DNA of 40,576 bases from Nitrospirota bacterium (GTDB lineage Bacteria; Nitrospirota; Thermodesulfovibrionia; UBA6902): assembly GCA_016215115.1 (NCBI GenBank), contig JACRLN010000042.1, positions 1 through 40,576 of the forward strand, written 5' to 3'. A program made the translations under genes and the position numbers. This document shows, in pieces, positions 4,684 through 34,437 of the stretch (its first letter is position 1; every line of letters starts with the position of its first letter). Below the pieces are notes generated by a model. It ran no database searches, was not told the DNA's origin, and saw only the letters and a program-made list of their open reading frames with translations.

Positions 4684-4976
4684 TAATTATATCACCCCCT
4701 TTCCACGTTTTTATCTAAGCTTATCGAAAAAATGTTACAGGATTATGTCAGTTCCATGAAATTATCAAGTCAACTCCAGTTAATAATGAACAACGTCCCG
4801 ATTAACAAAATAATAGAGATGTTCGGAGAAGTGTCAGAATTGTTTTTCTGCATGAAGAGGAAGGTTTCTGGTATTTTTAAGTTTTACCGTAAGAAGCCGT
4901 ATAACTATGTATAACAAAAAATAAGTAAGACAAGTTTTTAACATTACTACAACGAACTAAACAAGGAGGGATCAAT

Positions 4977-5384
4977 ATGTCGTTAATTACTTGGAACGAA
5001 AATTTCAGCGTTAATATTATGGAGGTTGATTCACAGCATAAGAAGCTTATTGAACTTATAAATGAGTTACACGAAGCAATGAAGGTGGCTAAGGGTAAGG
5101 ATGTTATGGGTAACATATTAAGTGAGTTGGTAAATTATACTGTTTATCATTTCGGTACAGAAGAAAAGCTGTTTCAGAAGCACGGATATGCTGAATATGT
5201 AACACACAAAAAACAACATGATGATTTAACAAAACAGGTAGTGGCTGCTGCGGATAAATTCAATAAAGGGGGTAATATCATCACCGTTGAAGTGATGAAC
5301 TTTCTTAAAAACTGGCTTCAGAACCATATTCTTGCAGTAGATAAAAGATATGCTCCTTTTCTGAACAGTAAGGGAGTTGTATAA
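4977..5384 (+). CDS. bacteriohemerythrin
   Basis: A 135-aa single-domain hemerythrin that binds O2 at a non-haem di-iron site, used for oxygen scavenging, sensing or delivery in microaerobes and anaerobes. All seven canonical ligands can be placed: H21, H58, E62, H77, H81, H117 and D122, a spacing that matches known bacteriohemerythrins almost residue for residue. Length is normal and there is no signal peptide. The ATG follows AAGGAGGG by about 6 bases. It is divergent from pstS across a 372-base gap, and seems to be a monocistronic gene at the edge of the block separating pstS from phoR. Confidence 0.96.
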   Translation: MSLITWNENFSVNIMEVDSQHKKLIELINELHEAMKVAKGKDVMGNILSELVNYTVYHFGTEEKLFQKHGYAEYVTHKKQHDDLTKQVVAAADKFNKGGNIITVEVMNFLKNWLQNHILAVDKRYAPFLNSKGVV

Positions 5385-5816
5385 GCAGTTTTTATTTCCC
5401 ACCCCGTTTCGTTTTCCCTGTCAGCCATGCATTTATTTGTTCAGGAAAGAAAGGGCCCCGGGGAATTGACGAATTTGTTTCTTTCGGCATGAAAGATGCG
5501 AGCACTGCCGCCTGATTTTTCCGGAAATCGTAAATATATTTTGTATATTCAACAAGATCACTTCTATCTCTGACGGACATGGACAATGGTCACAAAAAAA
5601 GAATTTAGTTCTTCTGAACTGGGACGCCTTCACCTCCTTACTATTACTCTGTTGAAACGTTATTTCTATGGCTTGAACCTACTGCACTGAGGTACTTTTT
5701 TCCAGCTGGCCCTTGGAACTAAAAAAACTGTTGCGTTGTATCGTTATTTTTACGTATGATATAATTATTTATTGGGCTTAAACGGTTGAATTGAATTCTA
5801 TAAAGGGACTATAGAA
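5385..5816. other. intergenic stretch, possible remnant
   Basis: This is 432 bases between the hemerythrin gene and the accessory island. A minus-strand open frame of 64 codons (5392-5586, TTG start, no ribosome-binding site, a stop just before the start) is too weak to call. A strong AAGGAGG (5634-5640, minus strand) has no start codon at a workable distance, so a decayed gene is possible. A promoter-like pair facing the next gene is listed separately. Confidence 0.4.
5736..5765 (+). promoter_or_regulatory. candidate promoter for the 265-aa gene
   Basis: TTGTAT (5736-5741) and a consensus TATAAT (5760-5765) are separated by 18 bases, about 50 bases upstream of the ATG at 5817. The surroundings are AT-rich, so a chance match is possible. 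Confidence 0.45.
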
Positions 5817-6614
5817 ATGGGAATAACTGGGGGTAAAGGTATTCAGATTCTTTCATCTTTCAGGTTTTCATATTTTAGTAAAATTAACAATAAAATTACT
5901 ACGGTATTTGGCCTGATTTTAAGTATAACCGGTTTCTTTGGTAGCGTTGCAACTTTATTAACATTACCCTCCGATCAATGGGGGAAGCTTCTTCCTATTA
6001 GTCTTATTATCATATTTCTATTAGGATTGTCAGTTTTTATAATTTCATTAATACAAAATTATAAAATCAACCTCGCTATCCCAGGTGTCCATGAGCTTGA
6101 GTCGATTACGTCGCGTTATCATATGGAGCCTGCGACATTGGAAGGAGTAAGGTGGATTGCACAACTTGAGGCAGACACTTATTCCTCTATTGATGCGGTG
6201 CCAAGACATGTTCTTGAAGAATGGTTTAGTGTTAACCCGCGAGGTTTTTTTCTCCTTAAAGCACTGAATGGTAGTGCTATTGGTCACATTGATATACTAC
6301 CAATACGTAAATCAAGTTTAGAGAAGTTTTTAGCTGGAGAATTACGCGAAACTGATATTCGTGGAGAATCCCTATATACCCCTGCTGAACGTCGCTCTAT
6401 CAAACATCTTTATATCGAAAGCGTCATTGTTAAACCCCAACGTAATAAATCTAGTGCATCCGCATTGTTACATCTTTTATCTCAATTTATGTCAATGATT
6501 AATAATGTCGGGGTATTCGAAAATATTGAAATGATATATGCAATAGCAGCTTCTCGGGCGGGCGAAGGGCTGAAGAAACTGCTTGTAGCTAGTGATGCCA
6601 TTGACGGTCTTTAA
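5817..6614 (+). CDS. two-TM protein with GNAT-like domain
   Basis: A 265-aa protein with two hydrophobic helices (about residues 27-50 and 58-81) and then a soluble domain of about 170 residues. The stretch IKHLYIESVIVKPQRNKSSA followed by a helix resembles motif A of GNAT acyltransferases (beta strand, then the V-x-P-x2-R loop that binds acyl-CoA). The preceding part (GFFLLKALNGSAIGHIDILP) fits the GNAT beta hairpin. The usual Gly-rich Q/R-x2-G-x-G/A loop is degenerate here, so activity is uncertain. The ATG follows AAGGGA. It is the first gene of an AT-rich accessory stretch. A membrane-tethered acetyltransferase is the best guess. Confidence 0.6.
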   Translation: MGITGGKGIQILSSFRFSYFSKINNKITTVFGLILSITGFFGSVATLLTLPSDQWGKLLPISLIIIFLLGLSVFIISLIQNYKINLAIPGVHELESITSRYHMEPATLEGVRWIAQLEADTYSSIDAVPRHVLEEWFSVNPRGFFLLKALNGSAIGHIDILPIRKSSLEKFLAGELRETDIRGESLYTPAERRSIKHLYIESVIVKPQRNKSSASALLHLLSQFMSMINNVGVFENIEMIYAIAASRAGEGLKKLLVASDAIDGL

Positions 6615-6722
6615 AAAAATGGATTTTTTATTTCTTGGTTTATCAATAAAGGAAAACGGCTGTGCTTTGTTCTTTAAGAAAGTACAGAAATAAAAAAATA
6701 GATAACACTAATATATTAAAAT

Positions 6723-7166
6723 ATGACTGATTATTATAATCCTCTGTTATCTCCAGGTATTCATGATGTAAAACTTGAACAGATAGATCAAATATTTGTT
6801 GCGCCGTTTAATAATTTGTGTAGAAAAAATTTAATTGCAAGATTTTTAATTTTTCTTTCAAATTTTAATAACGTTGGGATAAATTGTGAAATATGGATAG
6901 ATGGGTCTTTCGCTACAGATAAACCTGAACCGTCAGATATAGATATTATATTTTTTTTCAGTCCTATAGAAGTGAATCATTTACCAGAGGAGAAGAAAAA
7001 TATATTATATGATTTATTTGGCGACCCTAAACAGACAAAGTTTAGATATAATTGTGATGCATACTTTATTCCAAATGATAACATTGTAGATCGCAGTTAT
7101 TGGCGTGGTTGGTTTGGATTTTCAAGAGATGAAAAGCCAAAAGGAATAGCTAGACTTATTCTATAA
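6723..7166 (+). CDS. minimal nucleotidyltransferase-like protein
   Basis: A 147-aa protein with the Pol-beta-type nucleotidyltransferase signature: G61-S62-F63, nine residues, then D72-I-D74. A possible third carboxylate is D111 (YNCDAYFI). Such minimal NTases transfer a nucleotide to a protein, RNA or antibiotic, and are common antitoxin or toxin halves (MNT-type modules). It ends 7 bases before a 326-aa coiled-coil gene, so the two are surely one transcript. Low GC and a weak ribosome-binding site match the neighbouring genes. The family resembles DUF6932-type proteins, but that assignment is from memory of the motif pattern only. Confidence 0.65.
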   Translation: MTDYYNPLLSPGIHDVKLEQIDQIFVAPFNNLCRKNLIARFLIFLSNFNNVGINCEIWIDGSFATDKPEPSDIDIIFFFSPIEVNHLPEEKKNILYDLFGDPKQTKFRYNCDAYFIPNDNIVDRSYWRGWFGFSRDEKPKGIARLIL

Positions 7167-7173
7167 GATCGAA

Positions 7174-8154
7174 ATGAATACAATAGAAAAAATCCAATCT
7201 CAGATCAATGATGCTTCCGAGATAAAGAAAAAATATGAGTCTATACTTGCGTCTGAGCCAAATAATTTTGCATATAAACTAAGCTTAAAAAGCATTGAAG
7301 AGCATATTTCAGATTTACAAATGCAGTTACAGAAAGAAAAAGCCCTAAGAGAAAAAGAGGTTCTTGAGATAAGACTTAAAGGTGAACCAGCTAAGAGTGG
7401 TAGCATCCCTTTGTCAATATTAGCGCACTTAGCAGGCCATCTTTCTACGGCTATACTCACAGCCTCACAACGATTAAAAACTGGAATAAATGTTAGAGGT
7501 AGAATTCAACAAGAAGTTATTAACACTTTAGATTTAAGGCTTGCTGGGATAAGCGGCGGATCAACAAGACTGTTTATTACAGGAAACACATCTCCAGATA
7601 TGTTCGGATATAGTCTTCTTGAAAATAGTCTTGAAAGTACTTTTGAATTATTGCTTTCCACATCGCCTGACGAATTGTCTGAAACTGCCTCTAAAATAGG
7701 GCCTCGTAGTATTCACAGATTTAATAATTTTTTAAAATCACTTTCAGTATCTGGGCTTGAAGTTGATATGTATTGGAGCACCCCGACACAAAAGAATTAT
7801 GAATGGCTTGGTAACAAAGATCTGATTCTGAGAATTTCAAATTCATTAGACAGCTTAAAAACTTCTGAACCTATACAGTTTGCGTTTGAAGGGAAATTAG
7901 TCATGGCAAGTCTGAAAGGCAATATAGAGGTAGAGATATCGGAGAGCAAAAGCATTAAGGGTACATTTCCCTCAAATCTACTTGAGAATGTTAAAAAGTT
8001 GCATATTGGTGAAGATTGTAAAGGGTTAATTGAGCAGTCAACAATAATTAATCAAACCACAGGATATGAAAAAAAGTATTACACAGTATTGAAAATTGAT
8101 AAACATATAGATGACTCTCCAATACAAGAAATTTTTTGGGAAACTTCAGATTAA
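7174..8154 (+). CDS. coiled-coil partner of the nucleotidyltransferase
   Basis: A 326-aa protein of unrecognised family. Residues 1-70 are highly charged and heptad-rich (IEEHISDLQMQLQKEKALRE), predicted to be a coiled coil. Residues about 75-200 form a soluble domain containing LSILAHLAGHLSTAIL and an RLAGISGGSTRLFI strand-loop, and the rest looks beta-rich. There are no membrane segments and no obvious catalytic motif. It starts 7 bases after the nucleotidyltransferase gene. The pairing suggests a two-component toxin-antitoxin or defence module in which this protein is target, sensor or effector, but the role is inference from context. Confidence 0.6.
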   Translation: MNTIEKIQSQINDASEIKKKYESILASEPNNFAYKLSLKSIEEHISDLQMQLQKEKALREKEVLEIRLKGEPAKSGSIPLSILAHLAGHLSTAILTASQRLKTGINVRGRIQQEVINTLDLRLAGISGGSTRLFITGNTSPDMFGYSLLENSLESTFELLLSTSPDELSETASKIGPRSIHRFNNFLKSLSVSGLEVDMYWSTPTQKNYEWLGNKDLILRISNSLDSLKTSEPIQFAFEGKLVMASLKGNIEVEISESKSIKGTFPSNLLENVKKLHIGEDCKGLIEQSTIINQTTGYEKKYYTVLKIDKHIDDSPIQEIFWETSD

Positions 8155-8249
8155 CTCTCAATAATAAAAGGTACGGGGTTTGTTCTCGACATGAGACAAA
8201 ATAGGAGCGAAGAGGATAAAAAATTGGCAGTACCCCGCTGATTCGAAAT

Positions 8250-9446
8250 ATGAGTCATGGTGAAAGCAAAAGTTGTTGTATCAATTGTTTTTCTGATCCA
8301 GAAATACAAAGTTTTGTGGAAGATGTCGACACAATAGGACGTTGTGATTATTGTGAAAGTTCAGATGTTAAGATCCGTGATGTTGAAGAAGTTGGGCAAT
8401 TCATTTTAGAAGGTTTATTAAGATACTATGAAGATGCAGCTGAACATGTTGGTTATGAATCTGCTGAGGGTGGTTATTTATTATCAACAGATACTATTAG
8501 TGAAATATTGCTTTATGAAATTGATATTTTTGGAGAAAAGCTTACGGATCCTACTTATTTAGCAGAAGATTTAATTGATGATGACGGTACGCCATATGTG
8601 AAAAAGGATCCTTATGGCCCACCAGCGGGAGAACCTGAAGAAATCGATGACTGGGAACACTTTTGCGAAACTGTTAAGAATGATCAACGTTTCACTGCAT
8701 TATTAAAATTAAATAATGCCGATAAATATGATAATTCTCACCCAATTAATTTATTAGAAAAACTTGCAGATGGATTTCTACCTTCACTACTAATGCATTT
8801 ACCAAGAGGTATGAATATATATAGGGCAAGGATCGAAGAAAAAAATGAAATATTCCAACACAAAGATTTAACAAGCCCCCCACCGGAAAAAACAAGAAAT
8901 AGCCGAATGAGTCCTGTTGGGATTTCCTTTTATTATGGCGGATTAGATGCCGCTACTTGTATAAGTGAAGTTCGAGCAAGCGTTGGTGGAAAAGTTGCCG
9001 TTGCAGAATTTGAAATACAAAAAGAACTAACAATTTTAGATTTATCAAAAGATATTGAAGAATTTAAAAGCATTTTTAATGAGGAATATTATTTTAATTA
9101 TGAAGAATACTACAAACCACTTCTGAGACATTTTGTTACAGAGATTGCAAAACCAATCCAAAAATCTGATATGGATACTGAATACATTCCTACTCAGGTT
9201 CTTACAGAGTTCATTAAGATGAGATCTATTACTGATTTATACATGCCAAATACAGATCATAAAATCGACGGCATTATGTTTAAGAGCAGTTTAAGAACTG
9301 ACGGTATAAACATAGTGCTGTTCAAAGGGGCTGATGTATCAACCGAAGACATTACTCAGAACAGCGAAGCATGGCTTCTTTACAAGGCAACAAAAAGATA
9401 CGTCATAACTGAAATTGATGTCAGATTTCGAGCAGTTAATGAATAA
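8250..9446 (+). CDS. zinc-ribbon / HEPN / RES-domain protein
   Basis: A 398-aa protein. The N-terminus carries a zinc ribbon (C10-x2-C13 ... C32-x2-C35). Residues about 45-170 are an acidic helical region consistent with the HEPN/RES N-terminal domain. From about residue 185 there is a RES domain: MNIYRARI supplies the conserved Arg, SFYYGGLDAATCISEVR supplies the conserved Glu, and RTDGINIVLF is near the C-terminus. RES domains have an ADP-ribosyltransferase-like fold, and several act as toxins that destroy NAD+. No antitoxin-like gene overlaps it. A separate decayed RES fragment lies at 13979. Good match to the RES fold; substrate unknown. Confidence 0.75.
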   Translation: MSHGESKSCCINCFSDPEIQSFVEDVDTIGRCDYCESSDVKIRDVEEVGQFILEGLLRYYEDAAEHVGYESAEGGYLLSTDTISEILLYEIDIFGEKLTDPTYLAEDLIDDDGTPYVKKDPYGPPAGEPEEIDDWEHFCETVKNDQRFTALLKLNNADKYDNSHPINLLEKLADGFLPSLLMHLPRGMNIYRARIEEKNEIFQHKDLTSPPPEKTRNSRMSPVGISFYYGGLDAATCISEVRASVGGKVAVAEFEIQKELTILDLSKDIEEFKSIFNEEYYFNYEEYYKPLLRHFVTEIAKPIQKSDMDTEYIPTQVLTEFIKMRSITDLYMPNTDHKIDGIMFKSSLRTDGINIVLFKGADVSTEDITQNSEAWLLYKATKRYVITEIDVRFRAVNE

Positions 9447-9457
9447 TTAGCGAACTT

Positions 9458-12163
9458 CTAAAAATATGGGAACAATGTGGAAGACAAAGGGGGACTACCT
9501 TTACCATAGTATTTTATCTTGGCCATAGTTGCCATAACCTTCTGCCCGCCTTCAAAATCCCAGACCTTATGGTTTGGTGGGTATCCAGGACGTGCAAGAG
9601 TAACTTTATAGTCACTACCTAAAGCAACAACTTCATGAATGTGGCCAAATCCGCACAACTTGCAAAAAATTCGCGACAACTTATCATATTTTATATGTGT
9701 TGAGACATCAGAAAAGTCCAGCTCTCTGTATTGCTGCACCAATTCGCTCCAGAAAGCCAGAATGTTAGCTTTCAATTGTGCACCACCAGCATTAGTCATA
9801 ATTCTTGTGCGGTACTCAATTTCTTGCGCAGCAGCAGTTTCATCCCAGCCCTCACTATAGGTAAAATAATGCTGGAGATTGATACCTAGTTCCCATTTCC
9901 AGATAGAGGAGAGGTCCTCAAATCCTTCATTTTCACGTGGATTTGGAATAAGCCGTGCGATACAACAGACTCCATGCCAATAGGCCATTCGTTTGCATTT
10001 CTCTATCCTTTTCTGCACATACTCATCATTAGAATTATCGATACCATTAATAAGCAGAAGCGTAAATTTTCCGATTATTTCGACAACAATGCGGCAATAA
10101 TCTGTCTTCTCAAAATAGTCTCCCTTAGTTGACAGCAGAATTGCGGTGTATTTTTCCTCGGCATCACCACGTTTCTTCACGAGTATCTCTTTATCACGGA
10201 AATCAAGAAGAAGATGCAATGCTATCGTGAACATTGATATGTCAAGGATGTTGGGCTTGTGCTTTAGTGTCCTCTGCTTTTCAAGGATCTTAATATATTG
10301 GTCGAAAAAATGGAAAACTGTTTTTTGCAGATCGGCAAAACCTGAAGGGGTTTTTCGGTGCACATGCTTTGCAGTACGTTCTTCATAGTCGAAACGGCCT
10401 TCGGATGATTCAACCGCATCCCGGTCTGCTTCTTCATTTTCCGCAGATATATCTACATCCCGAATCTTGAGTTTCTCGAAGATTGCCCGAAGTGTTTCAA
10501 GGACTCGTTCAATCCGATGGGTACCGTACAGATGAGAAAAACCTCCCTTTACGATAAGTTCCGGAGATATCTTGGTGAATTCATCATATTCCAGTACTTC
10601 ACCTGTGCCATCGTCTTTCGGCCTGCCCTCATCATCCAGAATTCTTCTGCTACCCGACCCATCGTCATCCTTTCTCGCAAGGTCATCCGGATGTAGATAG
10701 CTCAAAATGTCCAATAGATCAGCATCACCAAACTCTATCTGATCTAAAACATCTTCCATCTTTTGGGTAGCGGGATCCGGATTTGTGCGGGATAGTGCCG
10801 CCACATCATGTATTATCTGTTTATTCGAAACGGCTAAACCAGTACTATTAAATAGTTGACCATAAAGAATATCTTCAGAGATTTCTGCTGCCTTCAGTCG
10901 GTAGTGCCCGGATTCTTTTTGATATTCGGCTTCTTTAAAAGTAATCTCCCCAGATACGTTTCCCCAACCATCAAACAGCCTCATTATAAGGTCTTTCGCA
11001 TCAATAGGCCCGTTAATATAAACCTGAAATAGTACGCCGAGTCTGTCAATAGCCTTTAATCTATTAAATTGCTTTTTTTCGGGTAATGCGTCATTTGTTG
11101 TGTCCCTTATATTTACAGGGATGTCAGAGGCTAAAATTATTTTCCCCTTGTCCTGCAAGCCAAGATCATCTATCCAGTTGCCTTTTTCTCTGCGAAGGAG
11201 CAGACATACTTCCTCATTTGTTGTGGGTATTTTTCGTGTGCCGAGTGCAGGTGCAGTCATGTTCGCACTGCCGAACATACAGTATTCATTCGACTCTGTA
11301 CGAATGTGAAGCAGCTTTGCGTGAAGATATCTATTGTTTCTGACTCCCGGTATGGTGTTCCAATTGTAAAACTTTATATTCCTGAACAGGATATCCTTGA
11401 AAGAGGCTGAGCAGGAATCCGGTTGTACAATTGCGTGTATATTCGCGTCTGGATAGCTATCCGCCAACTCACGCAGGATAAACGCTTCTGAATCAAAAAA
11501 TGGGGATATAAGAGTTATTTCACGGACAGTCTCGCTACTGATATGTGTTTGGATTGACATAAGCATGTTTCCGTTTGCATTCGAAAGCAAAAAGCATTGA
11601 ATATCTCCGGTTAGACTAACGCCATCGCCAACGGGTGTGTCGGGGATTTCATCAAGCCACGGCGTATGCTGTTTTACCCATTCTACTTTTCTTCGAGCAA
11701 TGCCATAAGTTTCAGTACTTAAAGAGTGAACATACTTCCATGCGTTCTTAAATATCGAAGCTTTAGGATCGAGAAGCCCATTGATGTGGAATGCTCCCCA
11801 TAGCTCTTGATTGCTGCCATGACCGGAGGCTGTAAGATTTCCTGAACCTACAATCAGAAAACCTTGCCCTTCACGCCCGAAAAAAAGATATAGCTTTGGA
11901 TGAAACGCTCCATTTCGAACAATACCGGATATAGAATACCGTCGTGCCGCCTTTGCAGGATATCCGGTTATTGTGCCGAGATACTGCTGCAACATTGAAT
12001 CATCAACAAGAATGCATGTATTGATCACACCCGCTCGGCTCAATGCTGAAAGAGCATCATGATTGAAATAGTTGAAATCGAAAGAAAAGGTTGTGAGTAT
12101 GCAAGAATGGAAGCGATTTGCCGGGAGCGTCGCAAAAATCGAGTATTCCTGCCGCTCGCTCAT
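9458..12163 (-). CDS. 901-aa double-HKD (phospholipase D-like) protein
   Basis: A large protein with two PLD-superfamily half-sites near the N-terminus: H88-x-K90 followed by GSGNLTASG (107-115), and H281-x-K283 followed by GSANMTAPA (298-306). This is the arrangement in HKD nucleases and helicase-associated PLD domains. Residues about 340-450 look beta-rich, 480-590 are acidic and linker-like (KDDDGSGSRRILDDEG), and about 600-901 form a large helical domain that I cannot assign. There is no signal peptide, so it acts in the cytoplasm, probably on nucleic acid. It overlaps the upstream 529-aa gene by 4 bases (ATGA), so the two are coupled. I cannot match the pair to a named defence system. 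Confidence 0.75.
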   Translation of the reverse strand: MSERQEYSIFATLPANRFHSCILTTFSFDFNYFNHDALSALSRAGVINTCILVDDSMLQQYLGTITGYPAKAARRYSISGIVRNGAFHPKLYLFFGREGQGFLIVGSGNLTASGHGSNQELWGAFHINGLLDPKASIFKNAWKYVHSLSTETYGIARRKVEWVKQHTPWLDEIPDTPVGDGVSLTGDIQCFLLSNANGNMLMSIQTHISSETVREITLISPFFDSEAFILRELADSYPDANIHAIVQPDSCSASFKDILFRNIKFYNWNTIPGVRNNRYLHAKLLHIRTESNEYCMFGSANMTAPALGTRKIPTTNEEVCLLLRREKGNWIDDLGLQDKGKIILASDIPVNIRDTTNDALPEKKQFNRLKAIDRLGVLFQVYINGPIDAKDLIMRLFDGWGNVSGEITFKEAEYQKESGHYRLKAAEISEDILYGQLFNSTGLAVSNKQIIHDVAALSRTNPDPATQKMEDVLDQIEFGDADLLDILSYLHPDDLARKDDDGSGSRRILDDEGRPKDDGTGEVLEYDEFTKISPELIVKGGFSHLYGTHRIERVLETLRAIFEKLKIRDVDISAENEEADRDAVESSEGRFDYEERTAKHVHRKTPSGFADLQKTVFHFFDQYIKILEKQRTLKHKPNILDISMFTIALHLLLDFRDKEILVKKRGDAEEKYTAILLSTKGDYFEKTDYCRIVVEIIGKFTLLLINGIDNSNDEYVQKRIEKCKRMAYWHGVCCIARLIPNPRENEGFEDLSSIWKWELGINLQHYFTYSEGWDETAAAQEIEYRTRIMTNAGGAQLKANILAFWSELVQQYRELDFSDVSTHIKYDKLSRIFCKLCGFGHIHEVVALGSDYKVTLARPGYPPNHKVWDFEGGQKVMATMAKIKYYGKGSPPLSSTLFPYF

Positions 12164-13749
12164 TGCAGTTTCTCCTTGAGTACTTTCTGCCCCAATGCAG
12201 TGAGCTTCTGTTGATTATCAACAAGCTTCAGGTCTATAAGGAATTGATGTAGAGATAAAATACGTGGCCCGGTCCAGACTGGCTCAGCTATACCCACTGG
12301 CTTGAGCATATTATCCTCGAATATGAACTTAAGAGTATTTTCGTTCCGGTTCCGCATTTTACGCATGGCAACTTCAATATGCCGATTGATAACTTGTTGT
12401 AAAAGGAGCCGCTCTACGAAATCCGACAGATTCAGTTTCTTGTGTCTTACGATCCATTCGAGCAACTGCACCACGTCCCCGTCACGGTTCATGCCGTGTT
12501 TTCGAGAATAGGCACGCAGTTTTTCAATTTGTCCTTTGTCGTGCTTGAAAATCAAACCGAGAACACACATAGCATGAGCAACACTTTTGAAAGCTGCATC
12601 CTCCCCAATACGCTGAATTGCATCAGTATGGCTTAAGGGTTGAAAGCCCTCATCGTATAACATCTCTGAAAACTTATCAAATGACATAGTATCCGCACTT
12701 TTCACATGAATCGTATCGGACATTATAGTCATACATGCTCCTTGTACAAAGTCCTTAATTATCATAGGAAGAAGCGATTGTCCCCGGTTGTTCAACTCGA
12801 CGAGTAATGCCCAAAGAACGGTTTCCATACTGTAATGGGCATACTCATTGAGGGCGTAATAATACCAACCGGTTGAAGCCGTATAGTCAACAAAAGGTTT
12901 TTTCTGCCATTTTTGTAGAAGGAAACTCCCCGGAAACCAGTCCTCTGGAGTATTCAGCGATGAATCATTCAGATATTCAAGGTAGAGCAAGATGGTTTCC
13001 CGGCGAAAAGTTGCATGACCTGCTGGCATCTCAATAGTCGGATAATCATGACCGAAAAGCAAGTCAATGTAAAATCTCCATTCATCAGTATCCGGAACAA
13101 TTTCTGTAAGCGAGAATTCCTCTCCCAACGATACAATATCTTTGATTGATGCTTTACCACTATCTATGATATGGACGTACCGTTTACGTGTGTCTTCGGA
13201 AATCGTTTTTTCGAAATGCTTGGCAAGTATTCTTCCGTAGGTCGGAGTGCAAACAGATATCCGGCTTTCTTTTTCACTTGGTGCAATCAATCCAGTAGCA
13301 GTAAGCGCTCCTTGATAATATTGGCCAAAAGCCCCAGTAGAGTATTTCCAATAAGACCGAAGCCCTGTGTTCCGGTCGGCGCCACCAGCAATATCAATAA
13401 TATCTTTTCGCTCATTGAGATAGTTCTTTGCATACAGACTTCCGACAACACCTTGTTCATCTGGGAAATTGTGCGACATTATAAAGGCAAGAAGTAATTC
13501 TCCACGTCTAATGAACTGTTGATACTCAGTGACACTGACCTTACCCTTTTCCTTAGCGTACTGTTCCAGCAGCCATATGTAGAATCCATAATAACGCATG
13601 CGACGTGTGAGATTCGTCAATCCTGGAAGAAGAGAGGCATAGGTAGAAATTGAGGTATTTTGCATCCCGAGCATGTCCTGCCCGGTGATGAATGTTTTTT
13701 CGGCACCCCAGAAAGGGGCTTCCCAATTCCCGCCAATAAGTACAGGCAT
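12160..13749 (-). CDS. 529-aa partner of the PLD-like protein
   Basis: A protein of unrecognised family. It has an aromatic-rich N-terminus (GNWEAPFWGAEKTFITGQDM), a long mainly helical middle, and a C-terminal region (about 455-529) with a winged-helix look ending in LTALGQKVLKEKL. There are no membrane segments, Walker motifs or obvious metal site. The stop overlaps the start of the double-HKD gene by 4 bases, so fixed stoichiometry is likely and the pair is probably one functional system. Composition is closer to the genome than that of the AT-rich genes at 5.8-9.4 kb, so it may have arrived separately. Confidence 0.7.
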   Translation of the reverse strand: MPVLIGGNWEAPFWGAEKTFITGQDMLGMQNTSISTYASLLPGLTNLTRRMRYYGFYIWLLEQYAKEKGKVSVTEYQQFIRRGELLLAFIMSHNFPDEQGVVGSLYAKNYLNERKDIIDIAGGADRNTGLRSYWKYSTGAFGQYYQGALTATGLIAPSEKESRISVCTPTYGRILAKHFEKTISEDTRKRYVHIIDSGKASIKDIVSLGEEFSLTEIVPDTDEWRFYIDLLFGHDYPTIEMPAGHATFRRETILLYLEYLNDSSLNTPEDWFPGSFLLQKWQKKPFVDYTASTGWYYYALNEYAHYSMETVLWALLVELNNRGQSLLPMIIKDFVQGACMTIMSDTIHVKSADTMSFDKFSEMLYDEGFQPLSHTDAIQRIGEDAAFKSVAHAMCVLGLIFKHDKGQIEKLRAYSRKHGMNRDGDVVQLLEWIVRHKKLNLSDFVERLLLQQVINRHIEVAMRKMRNRNENTLKFIFEDNMLKPVGIAEPVWTGPRILSLHQFLIDLKLVDNQQKLTALGQKVLKEKLQ

Positions 13750-13978
13750 TTTTATCAGCTATTTTATTTCCTTTTTTTCTATAAATTACCTGTTGTAATC
13801 TACATCATTTAAGAGATTTTTAGAAGAGATATATTTCAAGAGGGTAGCAAAATGACTCCATAAGCACTAAAGCTCCTCAGTAACGTTCTCTGACTCCCTC
13901 TTTGTCAGCAAACTGCGGGGTAAAAATCAGAGGCAAAACTCTATATTTCACCCGGAAAGATTCGGGAAAGACTGCCTC

Positions 13979-14206
13979 TTATTTCCACATCCGCTCATCG
14001 AGCGTGAAAGGCTGCGGTTTGCCGGTCTTTATTTTTATAAAATCGGCATGTCCTGGATTGAGCACAAGGTTGTGTTCATCCGGAATGAGCGCTGAAGGCA
14101 CACGCAGTATTGAAGAGACTCCCTTTCGTGCCCATTCGGTCCCTATTTCCTTTGTGGAATTAGATGGGGGCGACATTCTCCAGTCCGGGGTTATTTGCCA
14201 GTTGTC
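13979..14206 (-). pseudogene. RES-domain toxin, C-terminal fragment
   Basis: The minus-strand frame reads a typical RES-domain tail: PDWRMSPP, then EWARKGVSSILRVPSALI and PDEHNLVLNPGHADF, ending in a basic PFTLDERMW stretch. These match the C-terminal third of Xre-RES-type NAD+-degrading toxins. The frame is closed upstream by a stop near 14207, and no N-terminal half or antitoxin remains. A MITE-like repeat starts about 35 bases further on. The ATG at 14176 lies inside the conserved core, so it is not a genuine start. Confidence 0.75.
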
Positions 14207-14238
14207 ATGTTGTCAAGCCTGCCCGGCAGGTGCGGTGT

Positions 14239-14384
14239 CATTTACTAATCAGTTCATTAGTATGAAGACACATTTGTCATGCCCGCAGGTAGTAAGCGGG
14301 CATCCAGTACCTTTCTGGATTCCCGCTCAACAGACTGCGGGAATGACGTTTATGTATGCTTACTTATGAACTCCTTAGTAAAAT
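14239..14384. repeat. MITE-like repeat beside phoR, different ends
   Basis: The inverted ends read ATTTACTAATCAGTTCATTAG on the left and, from the right on the minus strand, TTTACTAAGGAGTTCATAAG. Between them is a double-hairpin core (GTCATGCCCGC...GCGGGCATCCAG / CTGGATTCCCGC...GCGGGAATGAC). This is the same core type as in the phoU-side repeat, but the termini are unrelated. It lies between the decayed RES toxin and the end of phoR, and may act as the phoR terminator. Confidence 0.7.
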
Positions 14385-14407
14385 TTCCGGAAAAGTACAC
14401 TCTGTGT

Positions 14408-16144
14408 TTAATAGTAAACCTTCACGATCGTCCCCTTGCCTTCTTCACTCTCTATCTTCATCTCCCAGCCATGCGCTTGTACAAGATGTTTGACGATTGC
14501 AAGACCAAGCCCCGTGCCGCCGAGTTCCCGGGAGCGTGACGGATCAACACGGAAGAATCTTTCTCCAATTCTTGAGAGGTATTTTCGGTGTATGCCGATT
14601 CCGGTATCTCTTACAAAGATAAAATTTCTGCCGTTTTCCTGTCCGGCGCCGATCTCTATCGTCCCCTTCTCTGTAAATTTGACGGCGTTGTCGGCAAGGC
14701 TAAGAAGGATTTGTTCGAACCTGTCCCTGTCGGCGCTGATTATCTTTCTCTCTGTCTGAAGCGATTTTTTGAGAAGAATATCCTTCTCCGCAGCCTGCAC
14801 CATAACCGCCTCAATTACATGATCCATAATATCTGATATATTCACGTCGGTCTTGTTCATTTTTATCACGCCGAGCTCTACACTTGAAAGGGTCAATAAA
14901 TCGTCTACCAGTCTGTTGATCCTTTCGCTTTGGGATTTGATGGTCTGAAGAAATTTTTCGGCATGTTCCCTGTCATACAGAGCGCCATCCAGAAGCGTTT
15001 CTGCAAATCCCTTTATCGACGTTACCGGGGTCTTTATTTCGTGTGAAACATTTGCCACAAAATCCTTTCTCATCTGCTCAAGCCTTTTCAGATGTGTCAG
15101 GTCATGAAAGATAGCTGCAACACCTGCTATCTCACCTACTTTATATGATATCGGCGACACCAGGACAGATAAATATCTTTCTTCAGGAAAATCTACAATC
15201 AATTCGGCAGAGCCGGTCATCCGGTTTTGTTTTACATGATCAACGAGAGACAGGAACTCGGGATTTCTCACAATTTCGATAAATGGCTTCCCGTCTAACT
15301 GCTGGACGCCAAAAAGTTCTCTTGCCGCATTATTTGAAAGTTCGATGGCTCCGCGTATATTAATAAGCAAGAGAGCTTCGGGTATATTTTTGATGATGAC
15401 ATTCAGACGGTTTGCCTTTTCGTCCCTTTGAATAATGCTTGTTTCCAGCTTGGACGCCATGTCATTCAGGTTGTGGGCCAGTTCGGTAAACTCTCCGGCG
15501 CCTTCGAGGTGGAGTCTTTTTTTGAAAAATCCGTGAGCTATTGCGCCTGCATATTCAGCTATCTGGTTTACGAACTTTCTGATCCTTTCCGTCTGCCAGA
15601 TTAAGATAACCCCTGTGAGCAGAAATATTGAGATGACCACAAGGTTTATTTTCAGCATTAACGCATTAACAGTTGAATTTACATCTTTCAGCGGCACGGC
15701 AAGTCTGATAAATCCCGCAGGCTGTCCTTCCTTCATGATCTTTCTTGCCGTGTAAAGGAAATCGTGCTTCAGCGTATCGCTATGCCTGACAGCCCAGCCT
15801 GTATCAGAAACAAAGGCCTGCTGGATTTCCAGTCTCGAGGCATGGTTATCCATCTTTGATGAATCATTGTCGGAATCGCCGAGGACTTTCCCGTTGATAT
15901 CAATAACAGTAACCCGCGCGCCTGTCTTTTCCTTTGCCTTTATACAAAACCCGTCAAGAACGGTTGTCTGGCTGAAAGAAATATTTTCCGCTATAAGCGC
16001 CGCCTGAATTAAGAGGCTGTCTTTCAGATTATTTATATAGTCTGAACGCACAACCCTGGTGACATAGAGTTCAATAAAGATTGCGGAAAGCAGAAAAACA
16101 AGAAAATACAGCAGGAATATCCTTCTGAAGATATGTCTTTTCAC
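14408..16144 (-). CDS. phoR: phosphate-responsive sensor kinase PhoR
   Basis: A 578-aa membrane histidine kinase. TM1 is at about 9-31, a periplasmic region at about 32-163, TM2 at about 165-184, then HAMP (186-240), PAS (245-345), HisKA with the phosphorylated His near 368 (ANVSHEIKTP), and an HATPase domain with N-box (LADNAVKF), G1 (DTGIGI) and G2 (GGTGLGLAIVKHL). The family phosphorylates PhoB when phosphate is scarce. The start overlaps the phoB stop by 4 bases. The long periplasmic domain puts it in the PhoR/PnpS group with an extracytoplasmic sensor. Assignment to phosphate rests on the pst operon downstream on the same strand. Confidence 0.93.
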   Translation of the reverse strand: MKRHIFRRIFLLYFLVFLLSAIFIELYVTRVVRSDYINNLKDSLLIQAALIAENISFSQTTVLDGFCIKAKEKTGARVTVIDINGKVLGDSDNDSSKMDNHASRLEIQQAFVSDTGWAVRHSDTLKHDFLYTARKIMKEGQPAGFIRLAVPLKDVNSTVNALMLKINLVVISIFLLTGVILIWQTERIRKFVNQIAEYAGAIAHGFFKKRLHLEGAGEFTELAHNLNDMASKLETSIIQRDEKANRLNVIIKNIPEALLLINIRGAIELSNNAARELFGVQQLDGKPFIEIVRNPEFLSLVDHVKQNRMTGSAELIVDFPEERYLSVLVSPISYKVGEIAGVAAIFHDLTHLKRLEQMRKDFVANVSHEIKTPVTSIKGFAETLLDGALYDREHAEKFLQTIKSQSERINRLVDDLLTLSSVELGVIKMNKTDVNISDIMDHVIEAVMVQAAEKDILLKKSLQTERKIISADRDRFEQILLSLADNAVKFTEKGTIEIGAGQENGRNFIFVRDTGIGIHRKYLSRIGERFFRVDPSRSRELGGTGLGLAIVKHLVQAHGWEMKIESEEGKGTIVKVYY

Positions 16145-31050: not shown

Positions 31051-31129
31051 ATTCATATGCAATTATTGCTGGAAACTAACTGCAATATGAAATGGTGATC
31101 TATGAAACTTGTTAGATATAGGCGGAAAC

Positions 31130-32965
31130 ATGACTAAAAAAAAGAAGACACCAGAGGCAGAATTAAAAGCTGGTTATATGCTTGACTTTATCAGCGGCGA
31201 ACCAATCAAAGCAACACCGGAAGAAGTGGAGGCGGTCCAGGTATTCGCGCAGCGTTTAGTCGAGGATTACGATTATCCGAAATCGCATATTCAAACTCGC
31301 CCACAGCATCGAGTAAGGAAACGTCCCTCTGACGAGGAAAAAACCTACCCTGTGGACATCGCTGTCTTTCGCTCGTCCAAAAAAACCGAGGACGATTTAT
31401 TCATGGTCGTTGAGTGCAAGAAGAAGAACCGAAAAGACGGTGTTGAACAGCTCAAACTCTATATGGACATGTCTTCGGCTGAGGTGGGCGTCTGGTTCAA
31501 CGGGGACGAGCACGAATATTTGCGGAAGATACACCTCAAGGACGGCTCGCGCACCTATACGCCGCTCCCCAATATTCCCCGCTCCGGTCAGCGCATTGAG
31601 GACATCGGCCTCTTCGCGCGCAAGGACCTCAAGAAGCCGTCTAATTTAAAGTCCGTATTCCGTGACCTCCGCAATCATCTGGCAGGCATGACAACCGGCA
31701 TCACCCGCGATGAAGCTTTGGCGCAGGAAATCATCAACATCTTGTTCTGTAAGATTCTCGATGAACAAGAAACTGCACCCTCAGAAACCGTCACATTTCG
31801 GGCCGGAGTGGGCGAAGACATTACTGATGTCCAAAAGCGTATTGCAAAAATATTCAATCGCGTCAAGACAGACTACTTTGAGGATGTATTTGACTCTGAG
31901 GTTGTACTTAAACTTGATGCCGAAAGCCTTTATTATGTGGTCGGTGAACTCCAAAACTACTGCATCATGGAGGCTGACCGTGATGCAATAGGCGATGCCT
32001 TTGAGGTCTTCATCGGTCCTGCCCTGCGTGGGGCAGAAGGTCAATTCTTTACCCCGCGTAACGTTGTAAAGATGATGGTCGAAATTCTCGATCCCAAGCC
32101 GGGTGAAAAGATCATTGATCCAGCCTGTGGTTCCGGTGGTTTTCTCATCGGCGCCCTGGAGCATATCTGGCGGCATGTGGACGTCAAAGCCAACAAACAC
32201 GAATGGAAACCGGACAGGAGGTTCAAGGAAAAAGTTCGAGTTGCCATGGAATATTTTCGGGGCGCGGATAAGGATGCGTTTCTTGCGAAAGTCTGTAAGG
32301 CTTATATGGCGCTTGTCGGGGATGGTCGCGGAGGTGTTTTCTGTGCGAACTCTCTTACACGGTCTGAAGACTGGCCAGCAGCTATGCGCGAAAAGATTAA
32401 TTTTGGCGCCTTTGATGTTGTGCTGACCAACCCGCCATTCGGCAAGAAAATTGTTGTAAAAGGCGTGCCCATTTTATCCCAATACGACTTCGGACACAAA
32501 TGGACGCGGAATAAAGAGACTAAGGAGATTGAGAAAACAACAACTCTTCACGAGGATCAACCACCTCAAATTCTTTTTTTAGAACGGTGTCTTCAATTAC
32601 TAAAGCCGGGCGGGAGGTTAGGTATAGTTTTACCCGAGGCCGTATTCGGTATGCCTACCTACGAGTATGTCGTAACCCATCTGAGGAAAAAAGTTAAGAT
32701 ACGCGGCATTATTTCAATGCCCGAGCCGCTTTTCAAGACGAGCGGTAAGGGTGGTACCCATGCAAAGACTTGCGTCCTATTTCTGGAAAACACACCGCCC
32801 AAACCGGATGAGGATTGGGACATCTTTATGGCTGATGCAAAATGGTGCGGCCATGATTCAAGAGGTAACCCTACGATACGTAAAGACGCAACTGGAAAGG
32901 AAATGCTTCTTGATGACATTCCACTTGTAACCAAAAAGTTTAAGGAGATCATCGGCTCATGGTGA
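31130..32965 (+). CDS. nuclease-methyltransferase fusion (HsdM-type)
   Basis: An adenine-N6 methyltransferase (611 aa) with an added N-terminal PD-(D/E)XK domain. In residues numbered from the ATG at 31130, D76 (PVDIAVF) and E95-C-K97 (VVECKKKN) form the nuclease motif of the HsdR-N type. The helical HsdM N-terminal domain follows, then motif I DPACGSGGFLIG (about 330) and the catalytic NPPF (about 434). GGCGGA precedes this ATG; an in-frame TTG at 31109 is an alternative. It overlaps the HsdS gene by 7 bases. No HsdR is present, so cutting may depend on this fused domain, as in BcgI-like enzymes. Confidence 0.85.
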   Translation: MTKKKKTPEAELKAGYMLDFISGEPIKATPEEVEAVQVFAQRLVEDYDYPKSHIQTRPQHRVRKRPSDEEKTYPVDIAVFRSSKKTEDDLFMVVECKKKNRKDGVEQLKLYMDMSSAEVGVWFNGDEHEYLRKIHLKDGSRTYTPLPNIPRSGQRIEDIGLFARKDLKKPSNLKSVFRDLRNHLAGMTTGITRDEALAQEIINILFCKILDEQETAPSETVTFRAGVGEDITDVQKRIAKIFNRVKTDYFEDVFDSEVVLKLDAESLYYVVGELQNYCIMEADRDAIGDAFEVFIGPALRGAEGQFFTPRNVVKMMVEILDPKPGEKIIDPACGSGGFLIGALEHIWRHVDVKANKHEWKPDRRFKEKVRVAMEYFRGADKDAFLAKVCKAYMALVGDGRGGVFCANSLTRSEDWPAAMREKINFGAFDVVLTNPPFGKKIVVKGVPILSQYDFGHKWTRNKETKEIEKTTTLHEDQPPQILFLERCLQLLKPGGRLGIVLPEAVFGMPTYEYVVTHLRKKVKIRGIISMPEPLFKTSGKGGTHAKTCVLFLENTPPKPDEDWDIFMADAKWCGHDSRGNPTIRKDATGKEMLLDDIPLVTKKFKEIIGSW

Positions 32966-34437
32966 ACATTCAGCAAGACCATCTCGGATTTGTACTGCCG
33001 AATAGTAAAATCCGCAATGGAGTTTTCATCCCGAAATTTTACAATCCTGAATTATTAGCACGCCTCAGGAAACTTAAAACAACGCATCAACTGCTATCCA
33101 TTAAGGATTTAAAAGACGACGGCCATCTTTCCGTTGCTACTGGTGATGAAATAGGAAAGATGGCGTATGGAACTGGGGAGATACCTTTTATAAGAACTTC
33201 TGATATCGTCAATTGGGAAGTCAAGGCAGATCCCAAACACGGTGTGAGTGAGGAAATCTACGCCGCCTACTCTGTTAAACAAGACGTTAGAGCAGGCGAT
33301 ATATTTTTAGTGCGTGACGGTACCTATCTGATCGGTCAAGCATGCGTTCTCACAAATCATGATCTCCCATGTCTTTATCAATCACATATCCTGAAGTTTA
33401 GATTGAACGAAGCATCACCAGTATCGCCTTACCTTTTCCTGGCTTGCCTGAATAGTCCGACAGTTAAGCAGCAAATACGTGCAAATCAATTTACTGCTGA
33501 CATCATAGATACTGTCGGCAATAGGTATCTTGATCTGGTGTTACCCGTTCCCCAAAAGAAATCTTTACGTGACCGTATTTCTAACGAGGTGCGATTGAAT
33601 GTAACACAAAGGATAGACCTTCGAGAGCGGATACGAAAAATTCCGCTGTGGGTTGAAGGGCAACTCGAATGTCTTGACTCCCCAATTCCTGAGGACTGGT
33701 TATGGCGCAGTGAACTGCTTGGCAATACTGGCTTTGCACGTTCAATATCGTATATTCGAAGCGGTATTTTTATTCCGAAGTACTATGATCCTCAGCTTGA
33801 TGACACATTGAAAGGGTTGAAGCGAACGCATGAATTGGTCACCATAAATGACCTCGTAAAAAGCAAAGTTGTCAACTGGGATACCGGCATCGAGATCGGT
33901 AAAATGGCGTACGGGACGGGACATATTCCCTTCATACGAACATCTGACATCTCGAACTGGGAACTCAAGGGTGATCCTAAACAAAGCGTTAGTGAAGCAA
34001 TCTATGAGGCAAACAAGCAGGATGTTCAACCTGAGGACATTTTTGTAGTTCGTGATGGAACATATCTTGTTGGTACGTCCTGTATTTTAACTGAGGACGA
34101 CACGAAGATTCTCTATTGCGGAGGCATGTACAAACTGCGCGTCCATGACAAGAAAAAACTCGATCCTTACCTCTTGCTTGCTCTCCTGAATACTCCGATT
34201 GTCCGGCGTCAAATGCGCGCCAAACAATTCACCCGCGATATTATCGATACGTTGGGCAAGCGCTTGTTTGAAGTGGTCCTGCCGATTCCAAAAGATGTCA
34301 AGACTTGTAAGAATATTGCTGATGAAACCCGGCGAGTAATCGAGACGCGCGTTCAACTTCGTAATCGCACTAAAGAAATCGCAATCGAAGTAGAAGGTAT
34401 CGCAAAGGGTACTGTGGAAACTATAGAAGAGATTTAG
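32959..34437 (+). CDS. hsdS: specificity subunit HsdS with duplicated halves
   Basis: A 492-aa DNA-recognition subunit with two target-recognition domains. The two halves are clear copies: RNGVFIPKFYNP at 19 matches RSGIFIPKYYDP at 267, GKMAYGTGEIPFIRTSDI at 66 matches GKMAYGTGHIPFIRTSDI at 314, and VRDGTYLIG at 118 matches VRDGTYLVG at 364. The shift is 248 residues, or 246 after a two-residue gap. Each half ends in a spacer helix (VTQRIDLRERIRK, IETRVQLRNRTKE). Two near-equal TRDs suggest a palindromic or near-palindromic target. It partners the overlapping methylase-nuclease. Confidence 0.9.
   Translation: MVNIQQDHLGFVLPNSKIRNGVFIPKFYNPELLARLRKLKTTHQLLSIKDLKDDGHLSVATGDEIGKMAYGTGEIPFIRTSDIVNWEVKADPKHGVSEEIYAAYSVKQDVRAGDIFLVRDGTYLIGQACVLTNHDLPCLYQSHILKFRLNEASPVSPYLFLACLNSPTVKQQIRANQFTADIIDTVGNRYLDLVLPVPQKKSLRDRISNEVRLNVTQRIDLRERIRKIPLWVEGQLECLDSPIPEDWLWRSELLGNTGFARSISYIRSGIFIPKYYDPQLDDTLKGLKRTHELVTINDLVKSKVVNWDTGIEIGKMAYGTGHIPFIRTSDISNWELKGDPKQSVSEAIYEANKQDVQPEDIFVVRDGTYLVGTSCILTEDDTKILYCGGMYKLRVHDKKKLDPYLLLALLNTPIVRRQMRAKQFTRDIIDTLGKRLFEVVLPIPKDVKTCKNIADETRRVIETRVQLRNRTKEIAIEVEGIAKGTVETIEEI

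Follow-up and report, generated by a model that had tools for sequence, protein, structure and literature searches.

Genes A and B, two adjacent genes in a 40,576-nt stretch of a Nitrospirota genome (the window), constitute an unnamed two-gene module that is related to Azaca and is very probably defensive. In the reading favoured here, which was given a probability of roughly 60%, A and B are obligate subunits of a mobile defence module akin to the ZacA–ZacB part of Azaca and work by the mechanism proposed below. The pair, a compact defence candidate, is found in haloarchaea and several bacterial phyla; the catalytic residues of B are conserved, and its helical partner, A, has no known fold. 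No paper describing the pair was found in the open-licence literature; it may carry a name elsewhere.

Gene Pair and Distribution

The first-pass annotation had placed two genes with an ATGA overlap in this part of the window. The genes, their coordinates and the overlap were all borne out when the open reading frames were read again.

9458..12163, (-) strand: gene B, 901 aa
12160..13749, (-) strand: gene A, 529 aa
12160..12163, (-) strand: ATGA overlap of the A stop and the B start

The ATGA overlap is consistent with translational coupling of A and B. The same pair was present in the closest relative, a Nitrospirota MAG (L110), with protein identities of 76% and 70–71%. The dN/dS values against L110 were 0.12 for A and 0.15 for B. 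At the codon level both genes are under purifying selection, and A and B are therefore both functional genes.

An alignment of A served to scan 84,980 species genomes for the distribution of the pair. A narrower alignment was used as the query, the 9-member alignment of A being too diverse for the collection scan. The scan gave 159 relatives, 80 of which were kept, and the ranking of homologues was biased towards Bacteroidota. B lay directly 3′ of A in 78/78 of the loci whose contig extended past A (80 loci kept), and it was frameshifted or broken in L062 and L107. The A–B gap of 93 pairs with A before B ranged from −59 to +17 nt; ORF starts were set at the first possible codon, which makes the large overlaps maximum values. 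Of the 395 Bacteroidota genomes sampled, the 6 with A were the same 6 with full-length B. Moreover, a single B, beside A, was found per genome in 29 genomes. Distant pairs were present in Proteobacteria, Nitrospirota, Actinomycetota and haloarchaea; plasmid-borne ones occurred in haloarchaea, Mycobacterium, Rhizobium, Cupriavidus and Novosphingobium, and a homologue of A adjoined B in each. Hence A and B travelled together in several phyla and in archaea, and their order was kept almost without exception. This co-occurrence in fixed order and the enrichment of type I restriction–modification (RM) genes given below strongly supported the earlier idea of a self-contained pair of a PLD protein and a partner.

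An apparent B without A in one further genome (G340; L171, 1465–2850) retained just the C-terminal half of B, which came immediately after IS3-type transposase ORFs, and it was read as a decayed, IS-disrupted copy. Within the L083 cluster (L049–L051, L053–L055, L060, L066, L067, L079 and L122), the A proteins were at least 75% identical across the Bacteroidota genera Empedobacter, Halpernia, Pedobacter, Paenimyroides, Belliella, Sphingobacterium and Flavobacterium, which suggests recent horizontal spread.

Catalytic Sites and Predicted Fold of B

The domains of B and its two half-sites were as follows.

Residues ~1–345: N-terminal PLD-superfamily domain with double H-x-K-N
Residues 365–460: beta domain
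Residues ~498–602: disordered linker
Residues 606–820: helical domain
After the helical domain: C-terminal beta element
11837..11902, (-) strand: first half-site, H88-P-K90 to G106-S-G-N109
11261..11323, (-) strand: second half-site, H281-A-K283 to G298-S-A-N301

Two intact HKD half-sites had been claimed for B. The H88-x-K90 and H281-x-K283 parts of the claim, each followed by GSxN, stood, whereas the HKD label did not, with the Asp at K+5 missing from both sites. This position was occupied by F95 in the first half-site and R288 in the second, and D was found there in 0/90 and 2/90 full-length relatives, respectively; B was thus ruled out as an HKD-type PLD with HxK(x)4D. The catalytic residues themselves were strongly conserved in the same 90 relatives: H 89/90, K 90/90 and N 90/90 in the first half-site, and H 90/90, K 89/90 and N 89/90 in the second. 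H88, K90, N109, H281, K283, S299, N301 and E318 were invariant or nearly so, and the spacing from H to N was 20 or 21 residues. As read from the alignment, the motif of B is H-x-K...N, the signature of Tdp1.

PLDc_2 (1.9e-10) was the only Pfam domain in B. The AlphaFold2 model had a mean pLDDT of 78, with values above 90 across most of the PLD half and less certainty outside it. According to the Foldseek comparison of this model with the PDB, Tdp1 was the best match at 1e-10, including the duplex-DNA complex 5nwa, followed by polyphosphate kinase (PPK1), which also has a PLD fold. B combined two HxK...N half-sites without Asp with a two-lobed PLD fold, as in Tdp1-like HKN enzymes. It differed from Tdp1 in its low identity (~12%), its extra C-terminal domains, its obligate partner A and its defence context. 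PLD sites of this kind work through a covalent phosphohistidine and are metal-independent. B is a predicted DNA-cutting phosphodiesterase.

PLD folds are found also in lipid metabolism and DNA repair. A role in DNA-end processing or as a lipid phosphodiesterase, with no link to phages, could be read from the fold matches, among which are Tdp1, a repair enzyme, and PPK1. This role was considered very improbable, given the patchy presence (6/395), the single copy per genome, the mobile elements and the defence neighbours of the pair.

The Helical Partner A

The model of A was almost entirely helical and of high confidence (pLDDT 89.4, pTM 0.88). No Pfam domain was detected in A, and Foldseek found no solved fold in the PDB below an E-value of 0.27. 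The transporters that appeared in this search (E of at least 0.27, TM 0.1) were read as no match, and the sequence matches of A in the PDB, which were design constructs and one uncharacterised protein with weak E-values, were attributed to chance. The conserved positions of A were the motif LLPGLTNLTRRMRYY near the N-terminus, R81, E223, R249, W295, H457 and K464, and T-x-P-R496 near the C-terminus. A had no match in the phage collection, and the single-protein scan of viral contigs gave no match.

Relation to Azaca and Other Known Systems

Azaca (ZacA–ZacB–ZacC) corresponds to PADLOC PDLC03828–PDLC03830, and its gene content follows PADLOC, the literature (PMC12278908; PMC10952713) and the genuine loci described below. 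The first-pass annotation had regarded both proteins as unrecognised. This view was overturned by the PADLOC models, in which ZacB matched B at 5e-12 and ZacA matched A partially at 2e-5, and profile comparison agreed. The alignment of A with ZacA by hhalign (E 1.3e-6) spanned ~120 columns, and the similarity was confined to ~120–140 N-terminal residues of A. The PLD half of B was aligned with ZacB at E 1e-12, with the TTFSFD motif and the two HxK sites in the aligned part, and the C-terminal half of ZacB had no match in B. The PADLOC ZacB model also matches PLD-helicases generally, and the ZacB match of B alone therefore proves little. Judged from the profiles together, A is a distant homologue of ZacA and B of ZacB, and the pair probably works like the ZacAB core.

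The genes were adjacent with A before B in the pair, and the same order, with ZacC next, was seen in the genuine Azaca loci L041 and L042. The differences were as follows. The ZacA of L041 matched DUF6361 (PF19888) at 1.5e-62, whereas A did not; A was ~110 aa and B ~290 aa longer than the Azaca proteins; the pair had no ZacC helicase; and the two-gene unit was stable across phyla. No ZacC was found in the genome of the window, and 19 other pair-bearing genomes gave short, weak matches only, none of them full-length, whereas both genuine Azaca genomes gave full-length ZacC beside ZacB. The pair lacks both the DUF6361 match and ZacC, and it was therefore rejected as Azaca proper and classed as a relative.

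The pair could instead be a ZacAB core that has lost ZacC and uses the helicase or translocase subunits of its neighbours (HsdR, ZorD, SNF2) in trans. The ZacA and ZacB homology of the two subunits, the Azaca gene order and the frequency of helicase-bearing neighbours would fit such borrowing. It was held to be unlikely, since no helicase gene adjoins the pair in the window, the genome of the window has no ZacC, and several other loci have no nearby helicase gene. The pair allows a direct test of the need of Azaca for its helicase.

The earlier exclusion of DISARM was upheld. The NCBIfam model of DrmC scored 17 bits on B against a cut-off of 133, and DrmA, DrmB and the DISARM methylase were missing among the window genes scanned. 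DrmC, DpdK of Dpd, NgoFVII and SauUSI resemble B in having a PLD fold as the effector in defence loci; their matches were weak only, whereas here a two-gene unit is present.

Association with Restriction Systems

The surroundings of the pair were examined for enrichment of defence genes. Of 49 non-redundant loci whose flanks reached 6 kb or more, 19 had type I RM genes within ~10 kb, as against 0/20 random regions of the same genomes (Fisher p 0.0007); the mean flank searched was somewhat longer for the loci (14.5 kb) than for the control regions (12 kb). Pfam searches of 108 immediate neighbours gave 8 HsdS, 4 HsdM and 5 SWI2/SNF2 proteins, none of which was listed in the matched control from the same genomes. 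The pair was nested between hsdS and hsdR on a Myroides plasmid (L004) and within the hsd operon of L075, 6 nt after hsdS and 3 nt before hsdR, and hsd genes adjoined it in L094, L103, L106 and L107. Other neighbours were Zorya genes upstream of the pair (L008), an SNF2 gene that the pair follows (L009), and a methylase and a restriction gene that it precedes in Mycobacterium (L014).

PrrC acts inside EcoprrI as an RM guardian. Like PrrC and PARIS, which are the precedent for such guardians (PMC12707154), the pair occurs as accessory genes in or beside type I RM loci; the proteins are unrelated, and the A–B pair is often found without RM genes. The pair may be a backup effector of the PrrC kind that kills or arrests the cell once a phage inhibits the adjoining type I restriction enzyme. 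The nesting in the Myroides plasmids and L075, the adjoining hsd genes and the precedent speak for this role. Its probability was nevertheless judged to be low: over half of the non-redundant loci, the window among them, lacked any type I RM gene in the available flank, and the partner genes varied (Zorya, SNF2 and other methylase systems). The pair lay within an RM operon in a minority of loci and not in the window. With the pair embedded repeatedly in hsd operons, the known RM guardians would gain a backup of the nuclease type.

Accessory Island of the Window

The first-pass annotation had assigned the pair to an accessory island, and comparison within the genus confirmed this.

4820..14409, boundaries approximate, no strand: accessory insertion carrying the pair at the pstS/phoR junction, from same-genus comparison
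6723–8154, (+) strand: DUF6932 nucleotidyltransferase-like gene and its partner, the PADLOC candidate pair PDC-M63A/M63B (4e-54, 2e-94)
8250–9446, (+) strand: HEPN_RES_NTD1 and RES domain protein, toxin-like, convergent with B (Pfam 5e-23, 1e-12)

The island measured 9.6 kb, with nucleotide homology ending near 4820 and restarting near 14410. In the same-genus genomes L153, L154 and L157, phoR adjoined pstS with nothing like 4820–14410 in between. The island carried genes for hemerythrin, an unassigned protein, PDC-M63A/B, the HEPN-RES protein and B–A. In L110, the pair was near a homologue of a TOTE-type primase-helicase and an SNF2 helicase, and also near two ORFs, one VirD4-like and one integrase-like, both recognised by reading of the sequence. 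The absence of the pstS–phoR insertion in the sister genomes and the surroundings in L110 mark the island as accessory DNA that is mobile. The mobility of the pair was evident in its plasmids, the empty site in sister genomes and its patchy presence (6/395).

No RM operon adjoined the pair in the window, where the neighbours were toxin-like or candidate defence genes only. Homologues of the RES and M63A/B genes were absent near other pairs at E 1e-8, and these genes are therefore probably separate systems. Elsewhere in the window, at 31109–34437 on the (+) strand, an N6 methylase with an HSDR_N_2 N-terminus and an overlapping 492-aa partner formed a separate restriction-like pair.

The strict pairing, the gene overlap, the location on plasmids and islands and the RES-type toxin-like gene on the same island would also agree with a toxin–antitoxin module for plasmid or island stability, in which the nuclease B would be toxic and A would neutralise it. 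Against this, A and B are both large, the invariant charged and aromatic residues are spread all along A, unlike typical antitoxins, and the specific association with RM operons is unexpected for a stability module. A toxin–antitoxin role was rated as rather improbable.

Proposed Mechanism

In the favoured reading of an Azaca-related defence module, the N-terminal half of B would be a Tdp1-like pseudodimer, in which the two HxK-N half-sites form one active site. B would cleave the phosphodiesters of nucleic acid via a covalent phosphohistidine and without metal. The helical A, made just before B, would bind B and license it on sensing foreign DNA, either by target recognition or by release from inhibition. 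Once licensed, B may cut the DNA of the invader or poison the cell. In many hosts the pair would back up the adjoining restriction system, whereas in the window it may act by itself or together with further island genes.

A broader form of this proposal is advanced only tentatively, with the odds somewhat against it: the pair may be a widespread, unnamed, self-standing immune system of two proteins, whose Tdp1-like HKN phosphodiesterase is under the licence of an all-helical partner of new fold, independently of helicase and methylase, and which has been incorporated into type I restriction operons of several lineages as a second, embedded defence.

Divergent Loci

Three further loci departed from the usual arrangement. 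A distant pair in Rhizobium (L017, 7797–12053) had the reversed order, B then A. In Halorussus (L012, 10691–14902), an unassigned gene of 1403 aa followed the distant A–B pair and is a possible third component. In the genome of the window itself, a second contig (C53; L043, 110–4159) carried a TOTE-type primase-helicase beside a 342-aa A-like ORF of 30% identity; this ORF ended 110 nt from the contig end, and the contig stopped before any B could show.
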